From Aurantiacibacter rhizosphaerae (GTDB lineage: Bacteria > Pseudomonadota > Alphaproteobacteria > Sphingomonadales > Sphingomonadaceae): a stretch of 64,000 nucleotides of DNA. A model generated the notes under the pieces. The model was given only the letters and a program-made list of their open reading frames with translations, did not search any database and had not been told where the DNA came from. The position numbers and the translations under genes are program-made. The stretch is taken from the NCBI RefSeq assembly GCF_009807005.1, contig NZ_WUBR01000001.1:186001-250000 (forward strand). Reading direction: 5' to 3'. Below are positions 10,695 to 29,284 of this stretch, piece by piece; the first letter of the stretch is position 1; the number at the start of each line of letters is the position of its first letter.

Positions 10695-10699
10695 ATCGC

Positions 10700-16024: not shown

Positions 16025-16352
16025 ATTGCATCCTCCCTAAGGCAAGCCGTTGAAAACGACCTGCAAATGCTATGGCTTCGTTCACCCTATTGGTGGGTGT
16101 TGCGAATTGCTGGAAAGGACGATGCAACAATGCCACGTCCGCATCGCGGGCAGCATGTCTCAAAATTTCCTCTCCAGTCGCCTTTGTACAATCACGACCG
16201 TTACGATCAAGCCCATTGCGCAGGAAAGAAATACGTGGGACAAATTTGTCGCAATCAAGCAACACGCAGTGGCCGCCATCTGAAACGAATGGGTTGCGAC
16301 GGGCTGTCTTTGAAGAATGCTGCTGTTGCGATTCGGAGGAGAGGCCAGGCCC
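16025..16352. promoter_or_regulatory. Intergenic region between TonB receptor and CmcJ-like gene
   Basis: 328 bp without a credible gene. It must hold the divergent promoters of the receptor and of the oxidoreductase. GGGAGGA near 16031-16037 (minus strand) and CGGAGGAGA at 16335-16343 (plus strand) are ribosome sites. No copy of the CTAACGATCGTTAG palindrome is present here, and no riboswitch-like conserved box was recognised. Confidence 0.5.
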
Positions 16353-17165
16353 ATGCAGGCGGACGCAGAAACGATCACTCGCGATGTAGAGGCCGATATC
16401 CGTTATATCGTGCGCGGCGAGAAGGCGACGTTCTACGCAGGTGACAGGGATCGCAGTTACTGGCCGGGCGAAGAGCACACCGTCACCATCCACGATATCC
16501 GCAGCGAAAAGCCGCTGCTGGCATTTGATCGTAACGGCTTTGTCGTGCTGGACGAAGCCGCACCGATCACCGATTTCGATGATCCCGCAAATCTGGAAAC
16601 CTACAGCCGTTATTGCGAGGACACGGTTCAGCGGCTGACCGGCGCATCAAAGGTCGTCAGCTTCGGAGGAATTCGCCGCACCAGTTCCACCGGCACCCAC
16701 GGGCACAACCAGCCCGCCGTAGGCGCACATGTGGATTATGGCGCAAAGACCGTGGCCGATTACACGCGCCAGATCCTTCCTGCCGATGAGGCGGAGGAGC
16801 GGCTGGCGAAGCGGCACATGCTGTTCAACCTCTGGCGCCCGCTTGCCACGGTGGAAAGCGCGCCCTTCACGCTGTGCGATGCCAGCACGGTGCGGCGCGA
16901 GGATCTGTTTCCCAGCGAGATCGTGGGCGGTCTCGGCGGGGTGGATTTCTCGCTCTGGGGTTTCAACCTTGCCTATCGGCCCGATCATCGCTGGTGCTGG
17001 CTGCCGCAGCAGCGACCGGAAGAGATGATGGTGTTCAAGCTGTTCGATACAGATCCGCAAGCGGTGCAGTTCACCGCCCACACCAGCTTTACGCCGCCCG
17101 ATGTGTCCGATGATGCGCCCCCGCGCTCCAGCATGGAGCTGCGCACCATCGCTTATTTCGACTGA
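16353..17165 (+). CDS. CmcJ/NvfI-type oxidoreductase
   Basis: 270-residue protein resembling the CmcJ / AsaB / NvfI group of putative Fe(II)/2-oxoglutarate-type oxygenases known mostly from fungal and actinobacterial secondary metabolism. Supporting features are the HxD pair His126/Asp128 in GAHVDYGA, the family block FNLWRPLATVESAPFTLCDAST (residues 158-179), and the C-terminal sequence around FKLFDTD, FTAHTSF and SMELRTIAYFD. The start at ATG 16353 is preferred over an in-frame TTG/CTG-region start at 16317 because GGAGGAG lies 10 bp upstream. It sits between the TonB receptor and the first operator of the catabolic operon. Substrate unknown; hydroxylation or desaturation of the imported compound is inference. 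Confidence 0.75.
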   Translation: MQADAETITRDVEADIRYIVRGEKATFYAGDRDRSYWPGEEHTVTIHDIRSEKPLLAFDRNGFVVLDEAAPITDFDDPANLETYSRYCEDTVQRLTGASKVVSFGGIRRTSSTGTHGHNQPAVGAHVDYGAKTVADYTRQILPADEAEERLAKRHMLFNLWRPLATVESAPFTLCDASTVRREDLFPSEIVGGLGGVDFSLWGFNLAYRPDHRWCWLPQQRPEEMMVFKLFDTDPQAVQFTAHTSFTPPDVSDDAPPRSSMELRTIAYFD

Positions 17166-17207
17166 ACCGGAGAAGCCGCTTGTCGGCGGGGCACTGCCTC
17201 GCTTACG

Positions 17208-17221
17208 CTAACGATCGTTAG
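17208..17221. promoter_or_regulatory. Palindromic operator, copy 1 (CTAACGATCGTTAG)
   Basis: Perfect 14-bp palindrome centred 41 bp upstream of the TTG start at 17256. The shared sequence with copy 2 extends to 17 bases (CTAACGATCGTTAGAGT, 17208-17224). It fills the space between a possible -35 (TTACGC, 17203-17208) and an A-rich -10-like segment (TCTAAAAA), a position suited to repression. AACG-N2-CGTT spacing resembles sites of TetR-family regulators such as PaaR (from memory). No TetR gene is in the window. Confidence 0.7.
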
Positions 17222-17255
17222 AGTCTAAAAAGACCGGACATAGGGAGAGCGAAGC

Positions 17256-18485
17256 TTGGCGCAGATCGATTTCGCGCAGGACGTAACCGCACGCGGTGCA
17301 ACATTCCCGCTGCACGGCCATGTTGCCGCAGGCTTCGAAGGCGTTGCCGAGGCCTTTGCCACCAACTTCAGGGAAGAAGAGGAGCTGGGCGCCGCCTGCA
17401 GCGTGGTGATCGACGGGCAAACCGTGGTGGACCTGTGGGGCGGATATGCGCGGGCGGATCATTCCGCCCATTGGGACAAGCACTCCACCGTCTGCATGAT
17501 GAGCGTTGCCAAGGGCGTGACCGGCATCGCCTTCAACATGCTGGCCGATCGCGGCCTTGTCGATTTCGATGAACCGGTGGCGACATACTGGCCGGAATTT
17601 GCGGCTGCCGGGAAAGAGGCGATCACCGTACGGATGATCCTGGATCACACGGCCGCGATCCCCGTGCTCACCAACGATGTGATGTATCCCGGCGGCCTGC
17701 TGGATTACGACAATTACATCCGCGCGCTGGAGGTGCAGGAGCCGCTGTGGCAGCCGGGCACCGTGGCGGCCTACCACGTGCATAACCAAGGCTTCCTGCT
17801 GGGTGAGATCATGCGCCGGGTCACGGGCATGACCGTTGGCCCCTTCCTGCGCCAGAATGTTACCGGCCCGCTGGGCGCGGAATATTACATCGGCGGGATG
17901 GACGCAGAAGAGCAATCGCACGTGGCGGAAGTTCTGCCCAACACCAAGGCCCGCCTGTTCGCGGCAAAGGATCAGGCCATGCCGGATAAGCCCACCACGC
18001 CCGAAGGGTGGCAGGATGGCGCGGTTCTGCGCAGCTTTGCCTTTCTGCAGAACGCGAAGGAGCCGTGGTACGACACGATGAATTCCGCCCGCTGGCGCGA
18101 GGTGGAAATCGCCAGTGGATCGGGCCACGGCAATGCCCGCGGCGTGGCCCGCATCTATGGCGCGGCCACGGGCGAGGTGGACGGGGTGGATCTGCTGTCC
18201 GATGCGCAACTGGAAGCCATGATCGAAGAACAGCACAACCAGGTGGAACTGTTGCAGGACCGTCCTTATCACCAGGCGAACAGCGTGCTGCTGAATTCGC
18301 CGGTGGCGGTTTACATGGGGCCGAACATGCGCAGCTTTGGCCATCACGGCCTTGGCGGTTCGATCGGCTTTGGCGATCCCGACGCGAAGCTCGGCTTCTC
18401 TTACTGCTGCAACCAGATGCACGCCGTGGGTGACAACGGCCCGCGCGCGCGCCGATTGATCGATGCCGTTTACGCGGCTGTTTGA
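17256..18485 (+). CDS. Serine hydrolase, beta-lactamase/esterase (EstB-like) family
   Basis: 409-residue cytoplasmic-looking protein of the class C beta-lactamase / carboxylesterase fold. The SxxK nucleophile is Ser83-Val-Ala-Lys86 (MMSVAKGVTG), the second-motif tyrosine is likely in AAYHVHNQG, and HHGLGGSIGFGDP provides the third motif. No signal peptide is present, so a metabolic esterase or lactone/amide hydrolase is more likely than antibiotic resistance. The TTG start at 17256 is supported by AGGGAGAG at 17240-17247. It is the first gene of a tightly packed plus-strand operon preceded by the 14-bp palindrome. Confidence 0.85.
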   Translation: MAQIDFAQDVTARGATFPLHGHVAAGFEGVAEAFATNFREEEELGAACSVVIDGQTVVDLWGGYARADHSAHWDKHSTVCMMSVAKGVTGIAFNMLADRGLVDFDEPVATYWPEFAAAGKEAITVRMILDHTAAIPVLTNDVMYPGGLLDYDNYIRALEVQEPLWQPGTVAAYHVHNQGFLLGEIMRRVTGMTVGPFLRQNVTGPLGAEYYIGGMDAEEQSHVAEVLPNTKARLFAAKDQAMPDKPTTPEGWQDGAVLRSFAFLQNAKEPWYDTMNSARWREVEIASGSGHGNARGVARIYGAATGEVDGVDLLSDAQLEAMIEEQHNQVELLQDRPYHQANSVLLNSPVAVYMGPNMRSFGHHGLGGSIGFGDPDAKLGFSYCCNQMHAVGDNGPRARRLIDAVYAAV

Positions 18486-18496
18486 AAGGATAGACG

Positions 18497-18916
18497 ATGA
18501 GTGATGACAAGCCTGCACCCGATATGACCGGACAGGAAATGTTCGACCGGGGCATGGAAATTCGCCGCAAGGTGCTGGGCGATGAATATGTCGACAAGGC
18601 GCTGGCGAAAAGCGGCCCGTTCAACGAGCCTTTGCAGGAATTGGTCACCACCTATTGCTGGGGCTGGAACTGGGGCCGCGATGGCCTGCCGCTGCGCGAT
18701 CGCAGCCTGATCAACCTCGCCATGATCGCCGTGCTGGGGCGCGAGAACGAGCTGAAGATCCATATTCGCGGCGCGCTGAACAATGGGCTGTCGAAAGAGG
18801 AAATCCGCGAGGTGTTGCTGCAGGTGGGCATTTACGCCGGCATTCCTGCCGCCGTGGACAGTTTCCGCATTGCGAACGAGGCATTCGCCCAGATCGAAAC
18901 GGAGGAAGCCGAGTAA
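18497..18916 (+). CDS. Carboxymuconolactone decarboxylase (CMD) fold protein
   Basis: 139-residue protein of the CMD/AhpD-like family. Supporting blocks are LVTTYCWGWNWGRDGLPLRDRSLINLAMIA and the HIRGALNNGLSKEEIREVLLQVGIYAGIPAAVDSFR stretch, split here for description: the conserved H-x7-G-x7-E pattern and a YAGxP motif. It lacks a CxxC pair, so it is closer to decarboxylase PcaC than to AhpD peroxidase. PcaC acts on gamma-carboxymuconolactone; in this cluster a related ring-opening or decarboxylation step is inferred. It lies 11 bp after the hydrolase and overlaps the next gene by one base (TAATG). Confidence 0.85.
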   Translation: MSDDKPAPDMTGQEMFDRGMEIRRKVLGDEYVDKALAKSGPFNEPLQELVTTYCWGWNWGRDGLPLRDRSLINLAMIAVLGRENELKIHIRGALNNGLSKEEIREVLLQVGIYAGIPAAVDSFRIANEAFAQIETEEAE

Positions 18917-19404
18917 TGGATCCCGGCCAGCGCCTCGCCATAGAGCTCGCCTGCGGCAAGCTGCCGCTCCTGTTTGCGAAATATGCCGACAATGGCGATG
19001 CCGGGGCGCTGGCCCAGCTATTCACCACCGATTGCGAATTTTCGCGCCCGTTTCAGCCCGAATACCCGTTTTATGGCCGCGCGGCGGTGGAGAATGTGTT
19101 CCGCAATCGCCCGCCGATACTGGTGCGCCACATCGTCACCAATGTGCTGGTGGAAGCGGTGACCGAGACGCGTGCGAAGGGCACCAGCTATCTCACCATG
19201 CTTTCCAGCCACGCCAGCACGCAACCGCCGCAGGAGGCGGGCGCGCTGTATGTGGGCGGGTTCGAGGATGAATATGTGCTCGACCAGTCGGAGCCGGGCG
19301 GCGTGTGGCGCTTTGCCAGGCGCGCCGGGATGGTGGCGCTGCACATGGGCGCCGCGATGCCGGATATTCCGCCGCCAAGCGATGAAATGAGAGGGATTTC
19401 CTGA
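18916..19404 (+). CDS. SnoaL/NTF2-fold protein 1
   Basis: 162-residue small cone-fold (nuclear transport factor 2-like) protein. The N-terminal helix with KYADNGDAGALAQLFTTDCEF, the aromatic FYGRAAVENVF segment and the central beta-sheet are typical of SnoaL, steroid-isomerase and hydroxylase small-subunit relatives. The ATG at 18916 follows GGAGGAA at 18901-18907 and overlaps the CMD stop. Such proteins catalyse cyclisation, isomerisation or dehydration, or support another enzyme; the reaction here is not known. The SnoaL-fold gene directly following suggests a pair acting in sequence or as a heteromer. Confidence 0.8.
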   Translation: MDPGQRLAIELACGKLPLLFAKYADNGDAGALAQLFTTDCEFSRPFQPEYPFYGRAAVENVFRNRPPILVRHIVTNVLVEAVTETRAKGTSYLTMLSSHASTQPPQEAGALYVGGFEDEYVLDQSEPGGVWRFARRAGMVALHMGAAMPDIPPPSDEMRGIS

Positions 19405-19814
19405 TGGTAAAAGCCGCGAATGCCAATGAACAGCTGGTGCTGGATTTCTTCGAGGTGTTGTCCTCCGGCGATCTGGAAAAGCTGCGCAGCTTCTATCACG
19501 AAAATTCCGTCTGGGAGCCCAAGGTGAAGGGCATCGCGGGCTCCGGTAAGCATGTGGGCATGGACATCATCGACAAGTTCCTGGCCCCGGTGCGCGGCAT
19601 GTTCGCGCCCGGCGATCCCAAGATCCACGTGCACAACATGTTCTCCACCGGCCCGTGGGTATGCGTGGAAAGCAACTCCACCGGCAGCACGGCGGACGGC
19701 AAGCCTTACGACAATGATTACTGCTGGGTGTTCGAAGTGTCGAACGGCAAGATCGATGCGATGCGCGAATATATGGATTCGCACTACACCGCCAAACTGT
19801 TCGGGATGGAGTGA
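19404..19814 (+). CDS. SnoaL/limonene-epoxide-hydrolase-like protein 2
   Basis: 136-residue NTF2-fold protein. It begins with the typical NEQLVLDFFEVLSSGDLEKLRSFY helix pair and has WEPKVKGIAGSG, a beta-sheet with ESNSTGSTADGKPYDNDYCW and the closing KIDAMREYMDSHY segment, close to the SnoaL-like and limonene-1,2-epoxide hydrolase type. It overlaps both neighbours by a shared base (TGATG at each junction), so translation is coupled. Role in the pathway unknown: isomerase, dehydratase or epoxide hydrolase are all compatible. Confidence 0.82.
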   Translation: MVKAANANEQLVLDFFEVLSSGDLEKLRSFYHENSVWEPKVKGIAGSGKHVGMDIIDKFLAPVRGMFAPGDPKIHVHNMFSTGPWVCVESNSTGSTADGKPYDNDYCWVFEVSNGKIDAMREYMDSHYTAKLFGME

Positions 19815-20581
19815 TGGCCGCACCCGCAACAACCCGTTATGAAGGCCAGCCGATTCTGATCTCCGGCGCCGGGCGCGGGCTGGGTGAAGGCATCGCGCAG
19901 CGCCTCGCCAGCGAGGGCGCGATTATCGGCATCGTCGATATCGACGGAGACACCGCAATGAAGGTGGCGCAAGGGATCGGTTCGGCTGGCGGGCAGGCCT
20001 TCGCTTATGGTGCCGATTGCGGCAGCCGCGCTGCCTTCATGCAGGTGGCGGCCGATTTCGCGAGGGATGCAGGCCCGCTGCGCGCGGTGATCAACAATGC
20101 ATCTGTGCTGGTGTACGAACCCATCGAGCAGGTGACGGAGGACACGCTGGACCAGATGCTGTCCGCTGGCCTCAAAAGCGTGTTCTGGGGCGTGCAGGCC
20201 TTCCTTGCCCACCGGGACGACAGCGCGCCCGGCAATATCCTCAACTACTCCTCCCCCGTCGCCTATCGCGGGCGGCCAAACACGGGGGCCTACACCACCA
20301 TCAAGGCAGGGATCGCGGGGCTGACGAAGGTGCTGGCGGGCGAGCTTGGCCCGCGCGGCATTCGCGTGAACGCGATGGCGCCGGGCAGCGTGCCGACGCC
20401 TGCGACCGAGGGGTTCGTGACGCCCGAGCAATATGAGCAGCGGGCGAAGTACATCCCCTTGCGCCGCAACGGCACGGTCGAGGATGTCGCCAGCGCAGCG
20501 GCCTATCTGCTGAGCGACGAGGCGAGTTTCATCAATGGAGCGATGCTGGCCGTGGACGGCGGCATCATTGCGGCGGGGTAG
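19814..20581 (+). CDS. Short-chain dehydrogenase/reductase 1
   Basis: 255-residue classical SDR that oxidises or reduces an alcohol/carbonyl with NAD(P). The cofactor motif is GAGRGLG (residues 18-24), with Asp42 in IVDIDG at the end of beta-2 favouring NAD. NNAS is at 94-97, the catalytic serine is at 146 or 147 (NYSSPVAYRG), and Tyr160/Lys164 form YTTIK. The C-terminal block DEASFINGAMLAVDGG is typical. The ATG at 19814 overlaps the previous stop; an in-frame GTG at 19811 is the alternative. One of two SDRs in the cluster. Confidence 0.92.
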   Translation: MAAPATTRYEGQPILISGAGRGLGEGIAQRLASEGAIIGIVDIDGDTAMKVAQGIGSAGGQAFAYGADCGSRAAFMQVAADFARDAGPLRAVINNASVLVYEPIEQVTEDTLDQMLSAGLKSVFWGVQAFLAHRDDSAPGNILNYSSPVAYRGRPNTGAYTTIKAGIAGLTKVLAGELGPRGIRVNAMAPGSVPTPATEGFVTPEQYEQRAKYIPLRRNGTVEDVASAAAYLLSDEASFINGAMLAVDGGIIAAG

Positions 20582-20585
20582 TGGC

Positions 20586-21731
20586 ATGACGGCAATGTGG
20601 CAGGAACGGCTCGATCAATTGAAGGCCGTTATCGAGGCGGACATAAAGCGCGGCGATTACTTCGGTGCGGTGGTGAAGATCGGGCGCGGCGGCGAAGTGG
20701 TGTTCGACGAGGCTATCGGCCACGCCTATGACGGCGGCGAGCGTTCGCTGAAGCGCGACGATGTGTTCTCGCTGTTCTCCGTCACCAAGGCCTTCACCAA
20801 TGTGCTGATGATGAAGGCGATAGAGGAAGGCCGCTTCCAGCTCACCACCAAGGTGCGCGACATGTTGCCCGAATTCACCGGAAAACCGCGCGAGGATGCG
20901 ACCTTCTACCATCTCCTCACCCACCAGGCCGGGATGCCGGGGGTGTGGAGCCCGAAGCCTGGCATGTATCTGGACCGGTTGCAGGAACTGTTCGAGGAAA
21001 GCATCGCCAACGTCCACGGCGCAACCCCGCCGGGGGAGCGCTGCGATTATTCCCCGCTGGTGAATCATGTGCTGATGGGCACCGCGCTGGTGCGCACCGA
21101 TCCCAAGGGTCGAAATTTCCAGACTCTACTGGCCGAAGACCTGTTCCAGCCGCTGCAAATGCACGACACCAGCATGGGCCTGCGCGCCGATCTGAACGAG
21201 CGCCATGTGCGCCCCGACATGCGCGGCACGGTGCCGATCAAGCACCTCAGCCGCAATTTGGAGGGCGACCATGCTTTGTTCGAGGATCCGGACGTGGAAG
21301 CACCGCATGTCGGGTGCGCATCCACCACCGGCGACCTGTGGCGCTTTGCCGAAATGCTGCGGCGCGAGGGCGAACTGGACGGGGTGCGCATCCTCTCCCC
21401 ACGCATGGTGCGGCTGGCGCGGCGCGTGCATTCGGGTGACAAGCCCAACGAACTCTATCGCAGCGTGGCCCTGCGCGCTGGGTGGGAGGTACCGCCGGCC
21501 AACCAGGGCATCGGCTTCCAGGTGCGCGGGACGGGCGTGTTCCAGCACCTGTTCGGACAACTCTCCAGCCCGGAAACTTTCGGCAATTATGGCGCCGGAT
21601 CCACGATGTTCATGGTCGACCCGGAGGCAGACCTGTCGTTCAGCTTCCTCAGTGCGGGCGTAATGGCGCAGGGGCCGAATATCGAACGCATGGGCAAGCT
21701 TTCCGACATCGCACTTTCCGCCTGTTTATAA
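20586..21731 (+). CDS. Serine hydrolase 2, class C beta-lactamase fold
   Basis: 381-residue penicillin-binding-protein-like hydrolase without signal peptide. The SxxK motif is Ser65-Val-Thr-Lys68 (SLFSVTKAFTNVL), the tyrosine motif is CDYSPLVNHVLMG, and the last part holds FGNYGAGSTMFMVDPE. Its sequence differs clearly from the first serine hydrolase (17256-18485), so the two are not a recent duplication and probably act on different esters or lactones. ATG at 20586 lies 4 bp after the SDR stop. Substrate unknown. Confidence 0.85.
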   Translation: MTAMWQERLDQLKAVIEADIKRGDYFGAVVKIGRGGEVVFDEAIGHAYDGGERSLKRDDVFSLFSVTKAFTNVLMMKAIEEGRFQLTTKVRDMLPEFTGKPREDATFYHLLTHQAGMPGVWSPKPGMYLDRLQELFEESIANVHGATPPGERCDYSPLVNHVLMGTALVRTDPKGRNFQTLLAEDLFQPLQMHDTSMGLRADLNERHVRPDMRGTVPIKHLSRNLEGDHALFEDPDVEAPHVGCASTTGDLWRFAEMLRREGELDGVRILSPRMVRLARRVHSGDKPNELYRSVALRAGWEVPPANQGIGFQVRGTGVFQHLFGQLSSPETFGNYGAGSTMFMVDPEADLSFSFLSAGVMAQGPNIERMGKLSDIALSACL

Positions 21732-21744
21732 AGGTTTACCGCAT

Positions 21745-23322
21745 ATGGCAGACGCAGATATCATCATCATCGGATCGGGGCACAATGGCCTTGTCGCAGG
21801 CGCATATCTGGCTGTGGCGGGCAAGAGCGTGCTGGTGCTGGAACGCAATGAATGGCACGGCGGCGGTGTGGTGACGCGCGAACTGACGCGGCCCGGCTTT
21901 CTTCACGATCAGCACGCCATGAGCCACATCTTCATCCAGGGCAATCCGCTGCTGGCGAATGACGATCTTGGCCTGCTATCGAAATACGGCCTGCAATATA
22001 TCTTCCCCGATGTGCCGATGATGAGCGTGTGGGAAGACGGCACCACCCTGCCGCTGCATCGCGACGCGGCGAAATCGGCGGCGGCTATCGCGCGTTTCAG
22101 CGAAAAGGATGCGCAGACTTTCCTCGAAATGAGCCGACAGGCCGCAGAATGGCTGCCGATGATCCAGGCGGGCCTCTATTCCCCGCCCATGCCGCAGGGC
22201 GCGCAGGCCGCGATGATGGACCAGTCCCCCGAAGGCCGCGAGATGTGGCGCACGACGCAGGTCTCCACCTTCGACCTGATGGAAGAGCTGTTCGAGCATG
22301 AAAAGGTGCGCGCGCATTTTGGCCGCGTGGCGGGCGAAAACCTCGTCTCTCCCGACGAAAAGGCCACTGGCATCGGTGCCTATGTCTTCCTGGCGTTTCT
22401 GGAGAAATACGGCTTCGGCGTGCCCGTGGGCGGATCGGGCAGTCTCACCAACGCACTGATCGCCTGTATCGACGATCACGGCGGCAGCGTGCGTGCCAGC
22501 GCCAGCGTGCGCGAGGTTACCAGCGAAGGCGGCCGCGCCAGCGGCGTGGTGCTGGACGATGGCGAGCGACTGACGGCGGGCGATTGTATTATCGGCGCGC
22601 TGCACCCGCATATCCTGCCCGACATGGTGGACGGTCTGCCGACAGACGTAGGCCACCGCGCCAAGCGCACCCACATTACCGATGCCGCCTGCTTCACCGT
22701 ACACGCCGCGCTGGATGCACCGCTGAAGTTCAAGGCGAAGACGCATGACGGGCAGGACCTGTCTGCAGTCATGTACGAGCTTATGCCCGCAGGATATGAG
22801 GAGATGCGCCGCGCTTTTGACGAGCTGCGCTATGGCAATATGAGCCCCACCCCGCTGGTGGGCGTGGGCCAACTGACGCAGCATGATCCAACGCGCGCTC
22901 CCGATGACAAGGCGATCTTCCACGCCTGGGACTACGTGCCCTACACCCGCGAGGATGGCCGCAGCTGGGACGAGGCGAAGGGCGAGTTCGCGGAAAAGAT
23001 GATCGCGCAGATGGGCAAATATATCGAGAATGTGCCCGATGTTTTGCTGGACTATCACTGCGACAGCCCTGTCGATATGGAGCGGACCAGCCCCAGCTTC
23101 TATCGCGGCGACCTGCACGGCATTGCCACCACCACCTACCAATCCGGCAGCCATCGCCCCACGCCTGACCTTGGGCAATATCGCGTGCCGGGCGTGGACC
23201 GTCTCTACCTTGTCGGCCCGTTCCAGCATCCTGGCGGCGGTGTGTTCGGCGCAGGGCGTGCCACGGCGATGGTGGCGGCAGACGACCTCGGCATCGATTT
23301 CGACGAAGTGCGCGTCGCATGA
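21745..23322 (+). CDS. Phytoene-desaturase-like FAD oxidoreductase
   Basis: 525-residue flavoprotein of the COG1233 / PYROXD2-like type. It has the FAD dinucleotide motif IIIIGSGHNGLVAGAYLA (residues 6-23), the acidic end of beta-2 in VLERNEWHGGG, and the C-terminal FAD block GPFQHPGGGVFGAGRATAMVAADD. Relatives desaturate or oxidise hydrophobic substrates; it is not placed with carotenoid genes. Given its cluster, oxidation of a CH-CH or CH-OH group in the catabolic substrate is inferred. ATG 21745 lies 13 bp after the hydrolase stop; the stop overlaps the next start (ATGA). Confidence 0.88.
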   Translation: MADADIIIIGSGHNGLVAGAYLAVAGKSVLVLERNEWHGGGVVTRELTRPGFLHDQHAMSHIFIQGNPLLANDDLGLLSKYGLQYIFPDVPMMSVWEDGTTLPLHRDAAKSAAAIARFSEKDAQTFLEMSRQAAEWLPMIQAGLYSPPMPQGAQAAMMDQSPEGREMWRTTQVSTFDLMEELFEHEKVRAHFGRVAGENLVSPDEKATGIGAYVFLAFLEKYGFGVPVGGSGSLTNALIACIDDHGGSVRASASVREVTSEGGRASGVVLDDGERLTAGDCIIGALHPHILPDMVDGLPTDVGHRAKRTHITDAACFTVHAALDAPLKFKAKTHDGQDLSAVMYELMPAGYEEMRRAFDELRYGNMSPTPLVGVGQLTQHDPTRAPDDKAIFHAWDYVPYTREDGRSWDEAKGEFAEKMIAQMGKYIENVPDVLLDYHCDSPVDMERTSPSFYRGDLHGIATTTYQSGSHRPTPDLGQYRVPGVDRLYLVGPFQHPGGGVFGAGRATAMVAADDLGIDFDEVRVA

Positions 23323-23531
23323 AAATCCACGCCGCCGACAAGTCCGAACTGATGCAGGTTTCGAAGATAGAGCGGAAGGGCAACGACCTTGTCCTGAAAG
23401 GCAAGGTCTATGGCACCATGCCGATGACGGCCACGCTGACGCCGGAGGAGGCGAAGAACTTCCTCAAGCTGATGACGCCAAAACTCGCATTCTTCCTCCT
23501 CACCCTGCCATTCCGCAAATCGAAAGGCTGA
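23319..23531 (+). CDS. 70-residue conserved-looking protein of unknown function
   Basis: Small basic protein that overlaps the FAD oxidoreductase stop by 4 bp (ATGA) and ends 5 bp before the next SDR, so it is a real part of the operon by context. The N-terminal half looks beta-rich (KIERKGNDLVLKGKVYGTMP). The C-terminal half contains an amphipathic to hydrophobic stretch LMTPKLAFFLLTLPF ending in RKSKG, suggesting membrane or protein contact. The family is not recognised; an accessory subunit of the flavoprotein is one possibility. Confidence 0.7.
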   Translation: MKIHAADKSELMQVSKIERKGNDLVLKGKVYGTMPMTATLTPEEAKNFLKLMTPKLAFFLLTLPFRKSKG

Positions 23532-23536
23532 CCGTC

Positions 23537-24328
23537 ATGGCGCAACGTCACGAAGGCAATTCCATCATCGTAACCGGGGCCGCAGGCTCCATCGGATTTG
23601 CCACCTGCGAGATTCTCGCCCGCGAAGGCGCGCAATTGCTGATGGTTGATATCGACGGTGATCGGCTGGAGGAGCGCGTTTCGCAGCTTTCCGCCAAGGG
23701 CCACACGGCCATCGGCCACGTGGCAGACTGCGCGGACGAGGATGCCGTGGCAGGCTACGCCAAGGAAGCGATTACCGCGTTCGGCAAAGTGGACGGCTTC
23801 TTCAACAATGCCGGGATCGAAGGCGACCTTGCCCCGACGCATGAATACGACATCGCCATGTTCGACAACATCATCCGCGTAAACCTGCGCTCCATGTTTC
23901 TCGGCCTGCGTTTCGTCATCCCGCACATGGTCGCCGCGGGAAAGGGCGCGGTGGTGAACACCGCCAGCATTGGCTCCGAACGCGGGCTGGCAGGGGCCTG
24001 CGCCTACAATGCGGCAAAGCACGGCGCCGTCGGCCTTACGCGGACGGCGGCGAGCGAGGTGGCACAAAAGGGCGTGCGCGTGAACTGCGTGATGCCCGGT
24101 GTGATCGAGACGCCGCTGCTGGTGGGCATGCTGGAACAGATGTTCGATGGCGATGTGCAGGCGGGCATGGACAAGCTGGGGCAGACGGCCACGCTGAACC
24201 GCGTTGGCCAGCCGCGCGAAGTGGGCGATGTCGTCAGCTTCCTACTTTCGGACGAGGCCAGCTACGTTAACGGCGCGAAATGGGAGATAGACGGCGGCGC
24301 GCTGGCGACCATTCGCAACGATATCTAA
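23537..24328 (+). CDS. Short-chain dehydrogenase/reductase 2
   Basis: 263-residue classical SDR. The cofactor motif is TGAAGSIG (13-20), Asp38 in VDIDGDR favours NAD, NNAG is at 90-93, and the catalytic Ser144, Tyr157 and Lys161 are in NTASIG and YNAAK. The C-terminal block is DEASYVNGAKWEIDGG. The ATG at 23537 begins 5 bp after the 70-residue gene. It is the last plus-strand gene of the operon; its TAA overlaps by 3 bp the end of the converging gene at 24325. Together with SDR 1 it could oxidise successive alcohols. Confidence 0.92.
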   Translation: MAQRHEGNSIIVTGAAGSIGFATCEILAREGAQLLMVDIDGDRLEERVSQLSAKGHTAIGHVADCADEDAVAGYAKEAITAFGKVDGFFNNAGIEGDLAPTHEYDIAMFDNIIRVNLRSMFLGLRFVIPHMVAAGKGAVVNTASIGSERGLAGACAYNAAKHGAVGLTRTAASEVAQKGVRVNCVMPGVIETPLLVGMLEQMFDGDVQAGMDKLGQTATLNRVGQPREVGDVVSFLLSDEASYVNGAKWEIDGGALATIRNDI

Positions 24329-24720
24329 AGCCGCGACACCACGAAATTTGCAGCAATCGCGCCGCGGTTCGATGATGCTGTGCAGGCGACTGTGGAAACC
24401 GCATCGTTGGAGAAATACACTTCGCACACGCCGCGTACATCCACGTTCCGGCCATTGGGCAGAGTGACAGTATCCACCGTCAGCCGTGTGCCCTCGAAAG
24501 TGCCGTTGAAGCGGGTGCGCGTTTCCCAGCCGCGCCTGCCGAAGCTGATGGAACCATCGGTAATGCGCACCTGGTTGCAGGAGACAAGCTCACCCGGCGC
24601 AGCGCGCAATTCCACCGCTTCTGGATAAAGACAGGTGCCACTATAGGTGCCGGTGGGCAGGACATCGGCGGCGAATTGCGCGGCGAAGATGAAGGCGAGA
24701 CTCAGCATGTGACTGAACAT
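24325..24720 (-). CDS. Exported hypothetical protein
   Basis: 131-residue protein when started at ATG 24720 (a TTG at 24744 is possible). It has a hydrophobic N-terminus (MLSLAFIFAAQFAADV) that looks like a signal peptide, followed by a beta-rich body starting LPTGTYSGTCLYPEAVEL and four cysteines that could pair in the periplasm (TGTYSGTC, LVSCNQV, GVCEVYF, VACTASS). The family is not recognised. It converges on and slightly overlaps SDR 2 and is separated by 48 bp from the minus-strand dehydrogenase, whose operon may read into it only after its own stop; it is more likely independently expressed. Confidence 0.6.
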   Translation of the reverse strand: MFSHMLSLAFIFAAQFAADVLPTGTYSGTCLYPEAVELRAAPGELVSCNQVRITDGSISFGRRGWETRTRFNGTFEGTRLTVDTVTLPNGRNVDVRGVCEVYFSNDAVSTVACTASSNRGAIAANFVVSRL

Positions 24721-24768
24721 GCGCCCAAATTGTGCCGCCCGCAATCGCGGTAAGCATGATTCGTGCGG

Positions 24769-25650
24769 CTAGCGATCCGGGTCCAGCCCGGCGGCTTCCT
24801 CCACCACCTTTGCGATGGCGGTGAAATCCGCATCCGCGCCCTCGCGTTCCAGCGTTCGCTGGAGGTAATCGGCCACGATCTGGCCCAATGGCAGCGGCAC
24901 CTCTGCTGCCTCAGCCTCGCTCAACAGCAGCTTCGTGTCCTTCAGGCTGAGTGCGGCGGCGAAGCCGAAGTCGAAGGTGCGCGGCAGAACGCTGCGCGGC
25001 CATTTGTCGCGCGTGGCGGAATTGACGCCGGTGGACTGGTTGAGGACGTCAATCATCTTTGCAGGGTCCAGCCCCTGCTTGATGCCGAAGGCCATGCCTT
25101 CCGCCGTCACCCCGATGGCGACCGCGCCCAGCAGGTTGTTCACCAGCTTCATGGTCTGCCCTGCGCCGGGTGTTTCGCCCATATGCGTGGGCTTTCCCAT
25201 CGCCTCCAGCATGGGGCGAACCTCGTCGAAAGCAGCCTCCGGCCCGCCGACCATGATGCTGATCGTGCCAGCCTTAGCCCCGGCAATGCCGCCCGATACC
25301 GGCGCATCGAGGCAGGCGGTCTTGCCCGCCAGCGCTTCGGCCAGTTCGGCGGCAAGTTGCGGGCCGCTGGTTGAAAGGTCGCAGATGATTCGCGGGGCAG
25401 CCTCTGCGGTGACGCCGTCTGCCCCCAGCACAGCCTCCCGCACGATTTGTGGAGTGGGCAGGCTGGTGAACACGACATCGCACCGCTCACCCAGTGCCGC
25501 TGCACTGCACGCAGCCTCTGCCCCCTTGGCCACCAGCGCGGCCACGGCTTCTTCCGACACATCGTGAACCAGCAACCGGCCGGTATGCGCCAGCAGATTT
25601 TCGGCCATCGGGCCACCCATGCGGCCAAGTCCCAAGAAACCGACAATCAT
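24769..25650 (-). CDS. NAD(P)-dependent 3-hydroxyisobutyrate dehydrogenase family enzyme
   Basis: 293-residue beta-hydroxyacid dehydrogenase. The Rossmann motif GFLGLGRMGGPMAENL opens the protein at residues 4-19, DAPVSGGIAGAKAGT is the substrate-binding block, and the catalytic lysine is in GAGQTMKLVNNLL (KxxxN). The C-terminal all-helical dimerisation domain with SLKDTKLLL follows. It oxidises a short 3-hydroxy acid to a semialdehyde or ketone. The ATG at 25650 overlaps the stop of the upstream lactonase-like gene (ATGA). It is the last gene of the minus-strand half of the catabolic cluster. Confidence 0.92.
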   Translation of the reverse strand: MIVGFLGLGRMGGPMAENLLAHTGRLLVHDVSEEAVAALVAKGAEAACSAAALGERCDVVFTSLPTPQIVREAVLGADGVTAEAAPRIICDLSTSGPQLAAELAEALAGKTACLDAPVSGGIAGAKAGTISIMVGGPEAAFDEVRPMLEAMGKPTHMGETPGAGQTMKLVNNLLGAVAIGVTAEGMAFGIKQGLDPAKMIDVLNQSTGVNSATRDKWPRSVLPRTFDFGFAAALSLKDTKLLLSEAEAAEVPLPLGQIVADYLQRTLEREGADADFTAIAKVVEEAAGLDPDR

Positions 25651-26471
25651 AGCATCTCCGCAACAGGGGTGTGCGGGGCGAGATCGACCCGCGCGATATT
25701 GTTTTCGGTGGGGAAGCAGGCCAGCACCAGTGGATCGTGACCGGGGATCAGGTGGTCCAGCGAACCGCCCGCCAACTCCATGACGCGGTTCTGTGCGCGG
25801 GCATACTCGCCCTCGTCGATGAAGATGGGGAAGGGCAGCTTGCGCGTAATATTGGCATAGAGATGCGCGGCATCGCTGGCGAGGACCACGGCCCCGCGCG
25901 CCGTATCGCACACCACCGCCTGCAACCCTGCCGTGTGGCCGGGCACCAGGCGCAAGCCGATGCCGGGGGCGAATTCCGCATCGCCATCGTGAAACACCAC
26001 CTGGTCTGCATAGAGGCGGCGCACCAGTTCGGCGACGGGTTCGCCATCGAAGGGCGCGCGGGTCGGCGCGTCGCAAACATGGCGGCTGGTGGCGAAGGCC
26101 ATTTCGGCGTCCTGCACGTGGAAGCGGGCGTTGGGAAAATCGCCGAGCCCGCCGGCGTGGTCATAATGCAGATGCGTCAGGATCACGTCGGTCACGCCCA
26201 GCCTGTCGATACCTGCATCGCGCAGGCTCTTGCGGATGGGGCGAGTAATCTCGCGCCCGCGTGCGGCGGCGGCCGCTGCGCCAAAGCCGGTATCCACGAT
26301 GACGGGGGGATGCCCCTCGCGGTGGATCGCCCAGACGAAGTAATCCAGCGGCATCGGCAGATCGTGATCGTCCGCCTGGGCGGCAAAGTTCTCCGCCGCA
26401 TTGCGATCGTGCCGGGCGTAACGAATGGCCTGGATCGCCGTGACAGGTGCAGGATTCGCGGGAGCAGCCAC
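25647..26471 (-). CDS. Metallo-beta-lactamase-fold hydrolase, AHL-lactonase-like
   Basis: 274-residue hydrolase with the zinc motif H100-x-H102-x-D104-H105 (LTHLHYDHAGGLGDFP). Further metal ligands are expected from LVPGHTAG, LASDAAH and PGHDP. The order and the string HYDHAGGL-DFPNA-F-VQ resemble AiiA-type N-acyl-homoserine lactonases, so opening of a lactone ring is a fair inference; quorum quenching itself cannot be claimed. It has no signal peptide. It lies 43 bp after the second MBL gene (26515-27417) and is coupled to the dehydrogenase downstream. A lactonase followed by a hydroxy-acid dehydrogenase is a sensible catabolic order. Confidence 0.88.
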   Translation of the reverse strand: MAAPANPAPVTAIQAIRYARHDRNAAENFAAQADDHDLPMPLDYFVWAIHREGHPPVIVDTGFGAAAAAARGREITRPIRKSLRDAGIDRLGVTDVILTHLHYDHAGGLGDFPNARFHVQDAEMAFATSRHVCDAPTRAPFDGEPVAELVRRLYADQVVFHDGDAEFAPGIGLRLVPGHTAGLQAVVCDTARGAVVLASDAAHLYANITRKLPFPIFIDEGEYARAQNRVMELAGGSLDHLIPGHDPLVLACFPTENNIARVDLAPHTPVAEML

Positions 26472-26514
26472 GGTTAACTCAGCTTCGCTTGAGGTATCGG
26501 GGCAAGCTGCTGCG

Positions 26515-27417
26515 TCACCTGTCGGCCACGCCTAGCCCGCGAAACCATGTCTCGCCATCGCTGCCGGTGACGAAGTGGCCCGCAGTCGGCTCAAAGAAAT
26601 GCATGCCCACCACCAGCGTGTCTGTATCCCTGTGCTTGTCGACAAAGGCCTGCCGCGTCTTGCTGCCGGTTTCGCGGTCCATGTCGAAAGTGGCGTGGCG
26701 ATGCGGCATGGCGCATTGCATGGGGTGATGCATCAGGTCGCCCGTGATGACGGCGCGCTCGCCCCGGCTTTCGATCATCACGTGGATGTGGCCGGGCGTG
26801 TGGCCGTGGCTGGGTTCTGCCCGGATGCCGGGCGCGATTTCGTGGTCCGTGTCGATGAATGCCACCAGCCCTGCCGCAATGATGGGGTCCACGCTTTCCA
26901 CCATGTGCTTGTCATCATGGTGATCGTCATGCCGCAGATCGTTCTGCCATGCTTCGTATTCGGTCTTGCCGAACAGGTATCGGGCATTGGGGAAGGTGGG
27001 CTTGAACTCGCCTGTCTCGGAATCCCGATAGGTGTTCCAGCCAACGTGGTCGAAATGCAGGTGGGTGCAGAACACCGTGTCCACATCCTCGCGCGCAATG
27101 CCGAGCGATGCGATGTCTTCGACGAATCCTTCGGGCAAATCGGTGAACACCTCATATTCGCGCTCTCTCCCGGCGCCGATGCAGGTGTCGATCATGATAT
27201 TGCGATCGGGGGTCTGGAGCACGATGGCCTGAAAGTTCATCCGCATGCGCCCCTCCGGCGTGGCATAGTGCGGGTGCAGCCAGTCCAGCGCCTTCACCTC
27301 GTCCGGCGTGGCGTTGGGCATGGCCATGTGGATGTCGTCCTGGAAATCCCAGATCTCCACGATGCGGCTGATCCTCACATCGCCCACCTGCCAGCTCTTG
27401 ATATGTTCCTTGGCCAT
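26515..27417 (-). CDS. Metallo-beta-lactamase-fold hydrolase 2
   Basis: 300-residue hydrolase from ATG 27417, which is preceded by AAAGAGGG on the minus strand; a longer frame reaching 27516 lacks support. The zinc site is H119-x-H121-x-D123-H124 (CTHLHFDHVGWNT), with PSHGHTPGHIH and TGDLMHHP providing the remaining ligands. An insertion rich in His and Asp (LRHDDHHDDKH) lies between the metal motifs. It is only distantly similar to the neighbouring MBL protein, so two different esters, lactones or thioesters are probably hydrolysed. Lies 13 bp after the GMC gene. Confidence 0.86.
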   Translation of the reverse strand: MAKEHIKSWQVGDVRISRIVEIWDFQDDIHMAMPNATPDEVKALDWLHPHYATPEGRMRMNFQAIVLQTPDRNIMIDTCIGAGREREYEVFTDLPEGFVEDIASLGIAREDVDTVFCTHLHFDHVGWNTYRDSETGEFKPTFPNARYLFGKTEYEAWQNDLRHDDHHDDKHMVESVDPIIAAGLVAFIDTDHEIAPGIRAEPSHGHTPGHIHVMIESRGERAVITGDLMHHPMQCAMPHRHATFDMDRETGSKTRQAFVDKHRDTDTLVVGMHFFEPTAGHFVTGSDGETWFRGLGVADR

Positions 27418-27430
27418 GGTCCCTCTTTCC

Positions 27431-29080
27431 CTATTTATACCGCGCGACGCTTTCCGGCGGCAGTTGCGCGGGTTCCAGCGGTGGCTTGCCGAGGATGAAA
27501 TCGGCGCATCGTTCACCGATCATCACGCTGGGCGCATTGGTGTTGCCGCCGATCACGCGGGGCATCACGCTGGCATCGGCCACGCGCAGACCCTTGATGC
27601 CCTTCACCCTCAGCTGCGGATCGACCACGGTGGCGGCATCGGCAGGGTCGCCCATGCGGCACGTGCCCACGGGGTGGTGCACGGTATAGCCTGTCTCGCG
27701 GATATAGGCGTCCCACTGCGCATCGCTCTCAACATCCGGGCCCGGCGCAACTTCGGTGCCCTCATATCGGGCGAACGGCTGGCTGGCGAAGGCTGCGCGC
27801 GATATCTTCAGCGCGCGGATCAGCGGCTTGATATCGTCGGGATGCTCCAGCAGATGGGGATCGATCACCGGCGCTGCGGCGGGGTCCGCCGATCCCAGTC
27901 GCACCGTGCCGCGGCTCTTGGGATAGAGGGCCACCGGGCTGATGGCGTAACCATGGCCCAGCGGGAAGGGCACCTTGGGATTGGTGAGGCGCCGGGCCGG
28001 CTGAAACACGAATTGCACATCGGGCCTTTTCAGCGCGGGATCGGTGCGCAGAAAGGCCACGCTTTCAAACACATTGCCCGCCAGCGGGCCCTTGCGCGTC
28101 AGCAAGTACTGGATGCCGTGCAAAATATCGCGCGGCAGCACCTTCCAGCTGATGCCATAGCTGGTGGTGTCGTCCGTCTCCATATGCATCGGGCTGGCGA
28201 CGTGATCCTGATAATTGCCGCCCACGCCTTCCAGATCGTGCAGCACATCGATGCCGTGATCCTGCAAATGCGCCGCGGGGCCGATGCCTGACAGCATGAG
28301 GATCTGCGGCGTCTGCACCGTGCCTGCGCTAATCACCACTTCGCGGCGGGCGCGGATGATGCTGCCATCCACCAGTTCCACGCCCGTTGCCCGGCCATCC
28401 TCCACGATAATGCGGGCGACCCGCGCACCGGTTTGCATATGCACCTGCCCGCCCGCGATGGCCGGTTTCAGCATGCTGGTGGCGGTGCTTTCGCGCCGTC
28501 CGTCGCGGATCAGGCCCTGCCGCCTGCCATAGCCTTCGGGATCAGGCCCGTTAAAATCCCCGCAGGCGGGATATTGCAGCGATGCCAGCGCATCCATGAA
28601 GGCGTAATTCAGCGGGTTGGGGTTCTCCACCAGCTTGACGTTGATCGGCCCCTGCTTGCCGTGAAACACGCTTTCGGGAAGATCCTCATTATGCTCAGTC
28701 CGGGTGAAATAGGGCAGCACTTCGCGGTAGGACCAGCCTGCGCACCCTGCATCTGCCCAATCATCGTAATCGGTGGGGTGGCCGCGAAAATACACCATCC
28801 CGTTGATCGCGCCCGATCCGCCCACCACGCGCCCGCGCGGCACAGGGATTTCCCTGCCCGCCATGCTCGCCTGCGGCACTGTGGCAAAGCGCCAGTTGGT
28901 TTCCTCCCGCCCGATGGCGGCGGCCACGAAACTGGGAATGTGGATGAAGGGGTGACTGTCAGGCCCGCCTGCTTCCAGCACGCATGTGGTGGAGGTTTCA
29001 TCCTCCCCCAAACGCGCGGCAAGCGCAGCACCGGCGGAACCGGCGCCGATGACGACGAAATCGAACTCTCCTGCGCTCAT
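27431..29080 (-). CDS. GMC-family FAD oxidoreductase (choline-dehydrogenase-like)
   Basis: 549-residue alcohol dehydrogenase/oxidase. FAD binding is shown by FVVIGAGSAGAALAARL (residues 8-24) and the GMC signatures PRGRVVGGSGAINGMVYFRG and VISAGTVQTPQILMLSGIG. The active-site pair lies in TVHHPVGTCRMG and GGNTNAPSVMIGERCAD. The choline-dehydrogenase-like branch oxidises many primary alcohols, so choline should not be assumed. It is the first gene of the minus-strand operon; GGGAGAGG sits 10 bp before the ATG, and the 14-bp palindrome lies directly upstream. Confidence 0.93.
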   Translation of the reverse strand: MSAGEFDFVVIGAGSAGAALAARLGEDETSTTCVLEAGGPDSHPFIHIPSFVAAAIGREETNWRFATVPQASMAGREIPVPRGRVVGGSGAINGMVYFRGHPTDYDDWADAGCAGWSYREVLPYFTRTEHNEDLPESVFHGKQGPINVKLVENPNPLNYAFMDALASLQYPACGDFNGPDPEGYGRRQGLIRDGRRESTATSMLKPAIAGGQVHMQTGARVARIIVEDGRATGVELVDGSIIRARREVVISAGTVQTPQILMLSGIGPAAHLQDHGIDVLHDLEGVGGNYQDHVASPMHMETDDTTSYGISWKVLPRDILHGIQYLLTRKGPLAGNVFESVAFLRTDPALKRPDVQFVFQPARRLTNPKVPFPLGHGYAISPVALYPKSRGTVRLGSADPAAAPVIDPHLLEHPDDIKPLIRALKISRAAFASQPFARYEGTEVAPGPDVESDAQWDAYIRETGYTVHHPVGTCRMGDPADAATVVDPQLRVKGIKGLRVADASVMPRVIGGNTNAPSVMIGERCADFILGKPPLEPAQLPPESVARYK

Positions 29081-29097
29081 ATATCCGGCGCCTCTCC

Positions 29098-29111
29098 CTA
29101 ACGATCGTTAG
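29098..29111. promoter_or_regulatory. Palindromic operator, copy 2 (CTAACGATCGTTAG)
   Basis: Exact second copy of the palindrome at 17208-17221, centred 24 bp upstream of the GMC gene start on the minus strand. Identity with copy 1 continues for AGT on the same side (17 bases in total). The two copies precede the first genes of the two halves of the catabolic cluster, which read toward each other, so both operons probably answer to one trans-encoded regulator. Confidence 0.72.
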
Positions 29112-29198: not shown

Positions 29199-29284
29199 GC
29201 GGGCGTGGCGGAATGGTAGACGCCGGGGACTTAAAATCCCCTGTCCTTTGTGACGTGCGGGTTCGAGTCCCGCCGCCCGCACCA
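29199..29284 (+). tRNA. tRNA-Leu (anticodon UAA)
   Basis: 86-nt gene including the encoded CCA (29282-29284). The acceptor arms GCGGGCG and CGCCCGC pair perfectly. The anticodon stem GGGGA/TCCCC encloses the loop CTTAAAA (anticodon TAA), a long class II variable arm follows, and the T arm is GCGGGTTCGAGTCCCGC. The long variable arm and anticodon establish leucine. Confidence 0.96.

Follow-up and report, generated by a model that had tools for sequence, protein, structure and literature searches.

An uncharacterised, conserved and probably catabolic gene block in Aurantiacibacter rhizosphaerae that newly combines known enzyme families

Investigating a 64,000-nucleotide stretch of DNA from Aurantiacibacter rhizosphaerae (assembly GCF_009807005.1, contig NZ_WUBR01000001.1, here C1, positions 186,001 to 250,000 of the forward strand; the whole stretch is called the window below and comes from a genome of 3.42 Mb), we followed up a compact group of enzyme genes at 13.4-29.1 kb, where a minus-strand TonB-dependent receptor gene is followed by 10 plus-strand genes and by five minus-strand open reading frames (ORFs) converging on them. 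This group is an uncharacterised, conserved and probably catabolic block, in which known enzyme families are combined in a new way. Its features are given here, with short gene names (BlaA, Sno2, SDR1, MBL2, h70 and so on) coined in this analysis:

13451..16024, minus strand: TonB-dependent receptor (Pfam Plug and barrel), left flank of the block
16353..17165, plus strand: CmcJ/NvfI-family non-haem iron oxygenase (NF041278); an in-frame ATG at 16317 is an alternative start
17256..18485, plus strand: BlaA, class-VIII-type serine esterase with beta-lactamase fold (PF00144, 182 bits)
18497..18916, plus strand: CMD, PcaC-like decarboxylase (TIGR02425); alternative start 18524
18916..19404, plus strand: Sno4, SnoaL_4/NTF2-fold, dehydratase candidate (PF13577, 57 bits)
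19404..19814, plus strand: Sno2, SnoaL_2/NTF2-fold, epoxide-hydrolase or isomerase candidate (PF12680, 57.8 bits)
19814..20581, plus strand: SDR1, short-chain dehydrogenase (SDR), NAD-type by sequence (PF13561)
20595..21731, plus strand: BlaB, second beta-lactamase-fold serine hydrolase (PF00144, 157 bits)
21745..23322, plus strand: CrtO-like FAD flavoprotein, likely a desaturase or dehydrogenase (NF045689, 216.4 bits)
23319..23531, plus strand: h70, conserved CrtO partner of 70 aa, no Pfam family; 4-bp overlap with the end of the flavoprotein gene
23537..24328, plus strand: SDR2, short-chain dehydrogenase, NAD-type by sequence (PF13561, 197 bits)
24325..24720, minus strand: h131, ORF of 131 aa with hydrophobic N-terminus, variably present, no Pfam family
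24769..25650, minus strand: HIBD, beta-hydroxyacid dehydrogenase (PF03446 and PF14833)
25647..26471, minus strand: MBL1, metallo-hydrolase of the acyl-homoserine lactone (AHL) lactonase family (PF00753, scanned from the shorter start 26354; motif HLHYDH)
26472..26514, no strand: P450-site gap of 43 bp, where most relatives have a cytochrome P450 gene
26515..27417, minus strand: MBL2, metallo-hydrolase of the dihydrocoumarin-hydrolase/MPH kind (PF00753)
27431..29080, minus strand: GMC alcohol oxidase/dehydrogenase (PF00732 and PF05199)
29199..29284, plus strand: tRNA-Leu(TAA), right border

Profile scans recovered all gene families named in a first-pass annotation of this DNA, in the orientations given there, while several details of the layout had to be revised. 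The CmcJ-like gene is followed on the plus strand by nine genes rather than eight, the conserved 70-codon ORF at 23319-23531 having been missed. With CMD starting at 18497, the junctions, described as 1-13 bp, do reach 13 bp (a start at 18524 would leave one junction of 38 bp), whereas at the lower end there is a 4-bp overlap; the CmcJ-BlaA gap is 90 bp. The four opposing minus-strand genes are accompanied by a fifth ORF (24325-24720), and instead of the right end at 29111 the longest table-11 ORF of the GMC gene begins at 29080 on the minus strand. CmcJ-like proteins of three inspected relatives measure 269-270 aa. A start of MBL1 at about 26471 yields 274 aa, in agreement with the relatives, and it is this placement which sets the spacing between MBL1 and MBL2 at 43 bp.

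With the CrtO-like protein as query against the genome collection, 42 loci (numbered L) were fetched, labelled mostly as Aurantiacibacter, Altererythrobacter, Alteraurantiacibacter, Croceibacterium and Erythrobacter, others no more precisely than as Alphaproteobacteria or Sphingomonadales, and including a distant subset (n = 8) labelled Gammaproteobacteria, Steroidobacteraceae or Caulobacterales; the nearest relatives of the window among them come from Aurantiacibacter and from an uncultured Sphingomonadaceae bacterium. Fourteen genes were scored for order and orientation as in the window, at 40% identity or more. All 14 are colinear in 21 of the 42 loci and 13 in five more, and this arrangement, with at least 13 of the 14 genes kept in the same order and orientation in 26 loci, is far from chance; several of the loci scoring below 13 genes are contigs too short for the whole block. 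In the same-genus sample (40 genomes, the window's own counted in), BlaB and MBL2, one from each arm, occur in exactly the same 23 genomes (Fisher p ~1e-11, phylogeny ignored). Within the family, a CrtO relative at E <= 1e-120 was present in 26 of 298 sampled genomes, and within the phylum a close BlaB in 4 of 398 (own included), all belonging to the window's family and adding no further gene contexts. Catalytic motifs are kept across families: the two serine hydrolases have S-x-x-K, the two lactonases H-x-H-x-D-H, the two SDRs Y-x3-K, the CmcJ-like protein H-x-D and GMC HPVGT, and the block therefore carries no sign of decay. Gene content, motifs, linkage and co-occurrence are direct observations, and the last two support the view that the block is a single functional unit. 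Conservation of the gene set as a block had been put forward in the first-pass annotation as a check on its view of one unit, probably catabolic, with ester- and lactone-type enzymes, and that view is supported. Literature searches for the gene set gave no paper describing it, most subscription journals being outside their reach.

CMD (18497-18916) seems to be a mosaic. Its protein is 95% identical to those of L009 and L012 and 76-77% to those of the near relatives L010, L011 and L041, whereas BlaA and Sno4 behave in the opposite way (92 and 90% to L010, 78 and 65% to L012); at the DNA level, positions 18606-18755 match L012 at 95% identity and L010 at 79%. Because the pattern of CMD reverses that of BlaA and Sno4, single-gene recombination inside the operon is suggested.

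Rearranged versions of the block were found as well. In L046, a gammaproteobacterial metagenome-assembled genome named after a bog, 11 of the 14 genes lie within 21.5 kb in a changed order, together with a P450 and a major facilitator superfamily (MFS) gene; L048 holds six of the 14 scored genes, and Sno2 accompanies CrtO in six of the eight distant loci, adjacent or one gene apart in five. Among 72,556 plasmid records, pEP1 of Sphingobium sp. EP60837, typed conjugative, ranks first for CrtO, MBL2, Sno2 and GMC and second for BlaB. It carries homologues of CrtO, h70, MBL1, MBL2, Sno2, SDR1, GMC, HIBD, CMD, BlaB, Sno4 and CmcJ at 34-69% identity (CrtO 60% and h70 69%; the run MBL2-Sno2-SDR1-GMC 48-53%; CMD-BlaB 55% and 49%). 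Unlike in the window, these homologues are spread in small runs over about 47 kb, amid O-demethylation-, intradiol-dioxygenase- and beta-ketoadipate-type genes, and on pEP1 BlaA was not found and SDR2 is matched only by distant SDRs. A literature search by the strain name EP60837 gave no paper.

Two module-like groups emerge from these comparisons. The first (GMC, SDR and lactonase) forms one run with Sno2 on pEP1, and SDR1, GMC and MBL2 are consecutive in L046. The second, consisting of MBL1, HIBD and CMD homologues, occurs within the stretch examined in 10 of the 11 plasmid loci opened from the 12 best MBL1 matches listed, seven of the ten also containing a MmgE/PrpD gene; five of the eight best HIBD matches listed come from the same plasmid records as MBL1, and L087 additionally holds BlaA (51%) and SDR1 (49%). 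Three of the ten loci have a common gene order, two are of one species and two of one strain, so that the independent cases are fewer than ten. Tripartite-tricarboxylate transporter genes adjoin the second group in three loci, two from Variovorax SRS16 and one from Paracoccaceae, a hint that a small carboxylated acid is involved; such genes also surround the MBL1 of L091, though the module is absent there.

The gene for h70 lies directly downstream of CrtO in 37 of the 42 loci (it was not found in L019, L022, L043, L045 and L050) and follows all seven CrtO copies in six plasmid records, some of these copies being only 36-38% identical to CrtO. The flavoprotein itself, with 216.4 bits against a cut-off of 1000, falls far short of the CrtO beta-carotene ketolase family (NF045689), and its model (pLDDT 78.1) matches gamma-carotenoid desaturase 4rep with a TM of 0.76 by query length. 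The model of h70 alone (mean pLDDT 61.8, pTM 0.22) is too weak to suit a fold search. We infer that CrtO and h70, a third unit beside the two modules, may act as a two-protein dehydrogenase, and the pair is a candidate for a new two-component flavoprotein family. On a plasmid of Diaphorobacter sp. HDW4B (L056), two CrtO-h70 pairs are located beside ring-hydroxylating dioxygenase and enoyl-CoA-hydratase genes, a further catabolic-type context in which the pair occurs.

The argument of the first-pass annotation drawn from a missing P450 and missing CoA enzymes does not hold once relatives and the rest of the genome are considered. A P450 gene lies between MBL1 and MBL2 in 22 of the 27 loci holding both, and the five without it (L009, L010, L011, L036 and L041) are all among the window's nearest relatives; the window's genome gave no match to the block P450 at E <= 1e-30. 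Among the same-genus genomes, the P450 (E < 1e-200) is found in 15 of the 23 block carriers and in none of the 17 non-carriers, and its absence, confined to this lineage, offers a natural comparison for P450 function. Counting each accessory gene separately at 50% or more identity and coverage, we found beside the block an aromatic-acid-type MFS transporter in 15 of the 42 loci, another MFS transporter in 17, an MhpA-like FAD monooxygenase in 15, a citryl-CoA-lyase-like gene in 12 and a CaiB CoA-transferase gene in 10. The window's genome retains the last two as a divergent pair (C1:1438531-1440526), 1.2 Mb from the block, the lyase being 77% and the transferase 92% (versus a partial copy) identical to the block-adjacent versions; the lyase-like gene (E <= 1e-30) is present in 20 of 23 carriers versus 3 of 17 non-carriers. 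The block is more solid than could be shown at first, yet less odd, because the missing markers occur in relatives.

Turning to the individual enzymes, the CmcJ-like protein belongs to its family (NF041278, 228 bits, cut-off 80), resembles NvfI in the PDB (7emz, E 1.7e-21) and has an iron motif, H138-V-D140 (numbered from 16317), which is near-invariant in 28 sequences. BlaA is nearest to carboxylesterase 5gmx and fenoxaprop-P-ethyl hydrolase 7y3z; the S-x-x-K motif is conserved in both serine hydrolases (S83/K86 in BlaA, S62/K65 in BlaB), as predicted for class VIII esterase-like hydrolases, and with 24 and 46.6 bits, respectively, BlaA and BlaB are far from the class C beta-lactamase cut-off (NF033085, 415 bits). 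Of the two PF02627 matches that the genome contains, CMD has the higher score. The sole PDB match of Sno4, a putative scytalone dehydratase, is weak (E 0.0043), while Sno2 matches limonene-epoxide hydrolases (from E 1.4e-5). A precedent for a dehydratase role is the NTF2-fold protein Hsh2, listed among bile-salt dehydratases in the accessible part of PMC12175502. Y160-x3-K164 is conserved in SDR1, 162 of 263 positions are near-invariant in SDR2 (34 sequences), and an acidic residue, in SDR1 placed after strand 2, suggests that both enzymes and HIBD are NAD-type. HIBD is closest to 2-hydroxymethylglutarate dehydrogenase 3cky in the PDB. Both lactonase-like proteins have the metallo-beta-lactamase metal motif at conserved positions (HLHYDH in MBL1, HLHFDH in MBL2), the nearest PDB entry to MBL2 being a reconstructed lactonase/dihydrocoumarin-hydrolase ancestor (5hif). 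For GMC it is a chloramphenicol-inactivating oxidoreductase (8b7s, 365.4 bits).

We give an even chance to the reading that this block forms the core of a catabolic pathway, apparently put together from exchangeable modules. The substrate would be an oxygenated compound made by plants or resembling such a compound, probably an ether, ester or lactone of phenylpropanoid type, imported by the TonB system. An oxygen heterocycle of phenylpropanoid type and plant origin is our best guess. Substrate, step order and every reaction described here are predictions made from sequence. Uptake would possibly proceed through the TonB-dependent receptor, a relative of which is found in 14 of the 42 loci, and the iron oxygenase, in relatives also the P450 and the flavin monooxygenase, would activate the substrate. 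BlaA and BlaB would cleave ester bonds; GMC may convert a primary alcohol into an aldehyde or lactol, SDR1 would turn this into a lactone and MBL2 would open the ring. The CrtO-h70 flavoprotein would desaturate the carbon skeleton, and the NTF2-fold proteins Sno4 and Sno2 could hydrate, dehydrate or isomerise it. A second, carboxylated lactone would be handled by SDR2, MBL1, HIBD and CMD, which may open it, oxidise the hydroxyacid and decarboxylate the product. CaiB would then activate the final acid, which the citryl-CoA-lyase-like enzyme, its gene lying elsewhere in the genome, would split.

The leaning towards phenylpropanoids comes from three sides. In relatives, genes for an aromatic-acid-type MFS and an MhpA-like monooxygenase adjoin the block. 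pEP1 carries aminomethyltransferase, folD, folB, intradiol-type dioxygenase and maleylacetate-reductase genes. The window's genome encodes LigAB, four RPE65-family dioxygenases and an intradiol dioxygenase whose gene lies next to pcaIJF-like genes. The run containing LigA and LigB (protocatechuate 4,5-dioxygenase type; C1:480.9-487.3 kb, L079:4923-11331) includes a CmcJ-like protein, 29% identical to one of pEP1. The four RPE65-family (carotenoid/lignostilbene dioxygenase) genes are situated at C3:197273, C1:611348, C3:340545 and C3:319071, and near the one on C1 are two genes 42-43% identical to the GMC of pEP1 and one 37% identical to its succinate-semialdehyde dehydrogenase.

A number of observations weigh against this reading. 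Family scans of the block genes detected no ring-cleavage gene within the block, and the aromatic genes elsewhere may serve other compounds, because at least one separate lignin-dimer-type cluster exists in the genome. Module frequencies such as 10 of 11 plasmid loci are raw counts, and in L091 MBL1 stands without HIBD and CMD; moreover, since the SDR, GMC, MBL and HIBADH families are large, linkage at 27-50% identity counts for less as evidence than the synteny seen between close relatives. In the roughly 10 kb examined on the right side of L031 and L038, the minus arm was not found. In the distant L043 the ten scanned neighbours seem unrelated to the block, as do most of the ten in L040, L045, L047 and L048 (histidine kinase, Dyp peroxidase, CAP protein, secretion ATPase, TPP enzyme; the exceptions are MFS, a flavoprotein and another MBL). 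pEP1 is not among the matches listed for CMD, MBL1 or HIBD, and its P450 shares just 33% identity with the block P450. Finally, CaiB and the lyase (CitL) may have a role outside this pathway.

More tentatively, we can imagine a new route of Pseudomonadota, in which two exchangeable lactone modules (GMC-SDR-MBL and MBL-HIBADH-CMD) and a new two-protein flavoenzyme (CrtO-like protein plus h70) would lead an unrecognised class of plant-derived compounds to a citrate-like acid, the CoA ester of which would then be split.

That the same catabolic unit acts on a non-aromatic natural product, be it a terpenoid, an apocarotenoid or a polyketide lactone, is a possibility to be taken seriously, albeit a doubtful one. 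It would suit the absence of a ring-cleavage gene from the block, the CrtO and SnoaL families and the P450 of relatives, the limonene-epoxide hydrolases being the best PDB matches of Sno2, and the citryl-CoA-lyase-like and CoA-transferase partners; however, relatives repeatedly carry the aromatic-acid-type transporter and the MhpA-like monooxygenase next to the block, and lignin-type genes are present on pEP1 and in the window's genome.

An unrecognised form of a known lignin-dimer pathway (pinoresinol, beta-5 or beta-1) is improbable. The GMC enzymes PhcC and PhcD serve a beta-5 dimer (according to a reference in the accessible text of PMC12607616), the gamma-formaldehyde lyases PcfL and LdpA act on dimers (accessible part of PMC11323797), and the genome has its four RPE65-family dioxygenases. 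Yet the known routes, as far as these two sources in their accessible parts describe them, centre on PinZ and PinU, both part of the pinoresinol (pin) gene set, or on PcfL and LsdD, and the gene sets differ: no lignostilbene-dioxygenase family, to which PinU belongs, was hit among the block genes, and one RPE65 gene sits in a different cluster together with two GMC-type genes (L093, C1:603-621 kb). A dimer other than these may still be a substrate of the block. The flavonoid (fde) pathway, for which the accessible part of PMC11303751 describes a naringenin hydroxylation and meta-cleavage route, was considered for the MhpA-like monooxygenase of relatives and dropped, there being no ring-cleavage dioxygenase in the block.

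It is very unlikely that MBL1 and MBL2 are quorum-quenching AHL lactonases with the remaining genes incidental to them. AidB and YtnP are their respective best NCBIfam matches, and AHL quenching is reported in Altererythrobacter in the accessible part of PMC6479171, but the scores stay far below the cut-offs (MBL1, from its shorter start, 72.0 versus 360 for AidB and 68.9 versus 375 for AiiA; MBL2 75.6 versus 425 for YtnP), both genes lie within the 14-gene colinear block, and MBL2 tracks BlaB exactly in the 40 genomes. A role in biosynthesis, with the locus producing or modifying a secondary metabolite, is just as hard to credit: the CmcJ/NvfI, SnoaL, P450 and CrtO families do occur in biosynthesis, but it speaks against this role that the block genes include no scaffold-forming enzyme, that a TonB receptor and MFS transporters adjoin them, that SDR1, SDR2 and HIBD probably use NAD and that the plasmid homologues lie among catabolic-type genes.

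Beyond the borders of the block, the tRNA-Leu(TAA) gene is present in 7 of 26 scanned loci, the other 19 having no tRNA in the stretch scanned, and its last 18-20 bases have no second copy in the window (up to 2 mismatches) that would form a genomic-island repeat. A second amine-oxidase/NAD_binding_8-type flavoprotein (30197-31810) follows just past tRNA-Leu and a PilZ gene, with relatives in L009, L010, L011 and L041. To the left of the TonB receptor, a minus-strand run at 7936-12337 comprises two amidohydrolase-type genes and a POT-family peptide transporter; near this flank in relatives, POT occurs in L009, L011 and L022 and GntR in L009, L010, L011, L022 and L041. Relatives of h131 were found in seven loci (gene-call families; eight sequences with that of the window).

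Because block genes occur in 23 of 40 genomes of the genus and most of the set is carried by a conjugative-typed plasmid, the substrate may be common in nature. The modules also suggest a way of reading other unannotated clusters of AHL-lactonase-family, HIBADH-type and CMD genes, which are now labelled singly as homoserine lactonases or PcaC.

Among known systems, pyridoxine degradation pathway I proceeds through pyridoxine 4-oxidase, pyridoxal 4-dehydrogenase and 4-pyridoxolactonase, that is, through members of the GMC, SDR and MBL superfamilies, and its succession from alcohol to aldehyde or lactol, lactone and hydroxyacid would suit MBL2-SDR1-GMC. However, SDR1 (143.5 bits) and MBL2 (49.5 bits) are far below the cut-off of 325 in both cases, which makes this a likeness and not a membership, and pyridoxine 4-oxidase 4ha6 matches GMC with 235.7 bits, less than 8b7s. 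The gamma-butyrolactone operon BlcABC/AttM pairs a lactonase with a hydroxyacid dehydrogenase, as MBL1 stands next to HIBD, whereas MBL1 reaches 59.1 bits against the AttM cut-off of 390 and the block has an HIBADH-type dehydrogenase and, in addition, a PcaC-like decarboxylase. With PcaC of protocatechuate ortho-cleavage, CMD shares a score narrowly under the equivalog cut-off of TIGR02425 (150.4 versus 155.7 bits, scanned from 18524), while scans of the block genes gave no match to a pcaB, pcaD or pcaHG family, and CMD is grouped with lactonase and HIBADH genes instead. The CrtO ketolases and CrtI-CrtD desaturases, finally, resemble the CrtO-like protein in fold and FAD-binding domain, and the flavoprotein of the block differs from them in having h70 behind it and catabolic-type genes around it.

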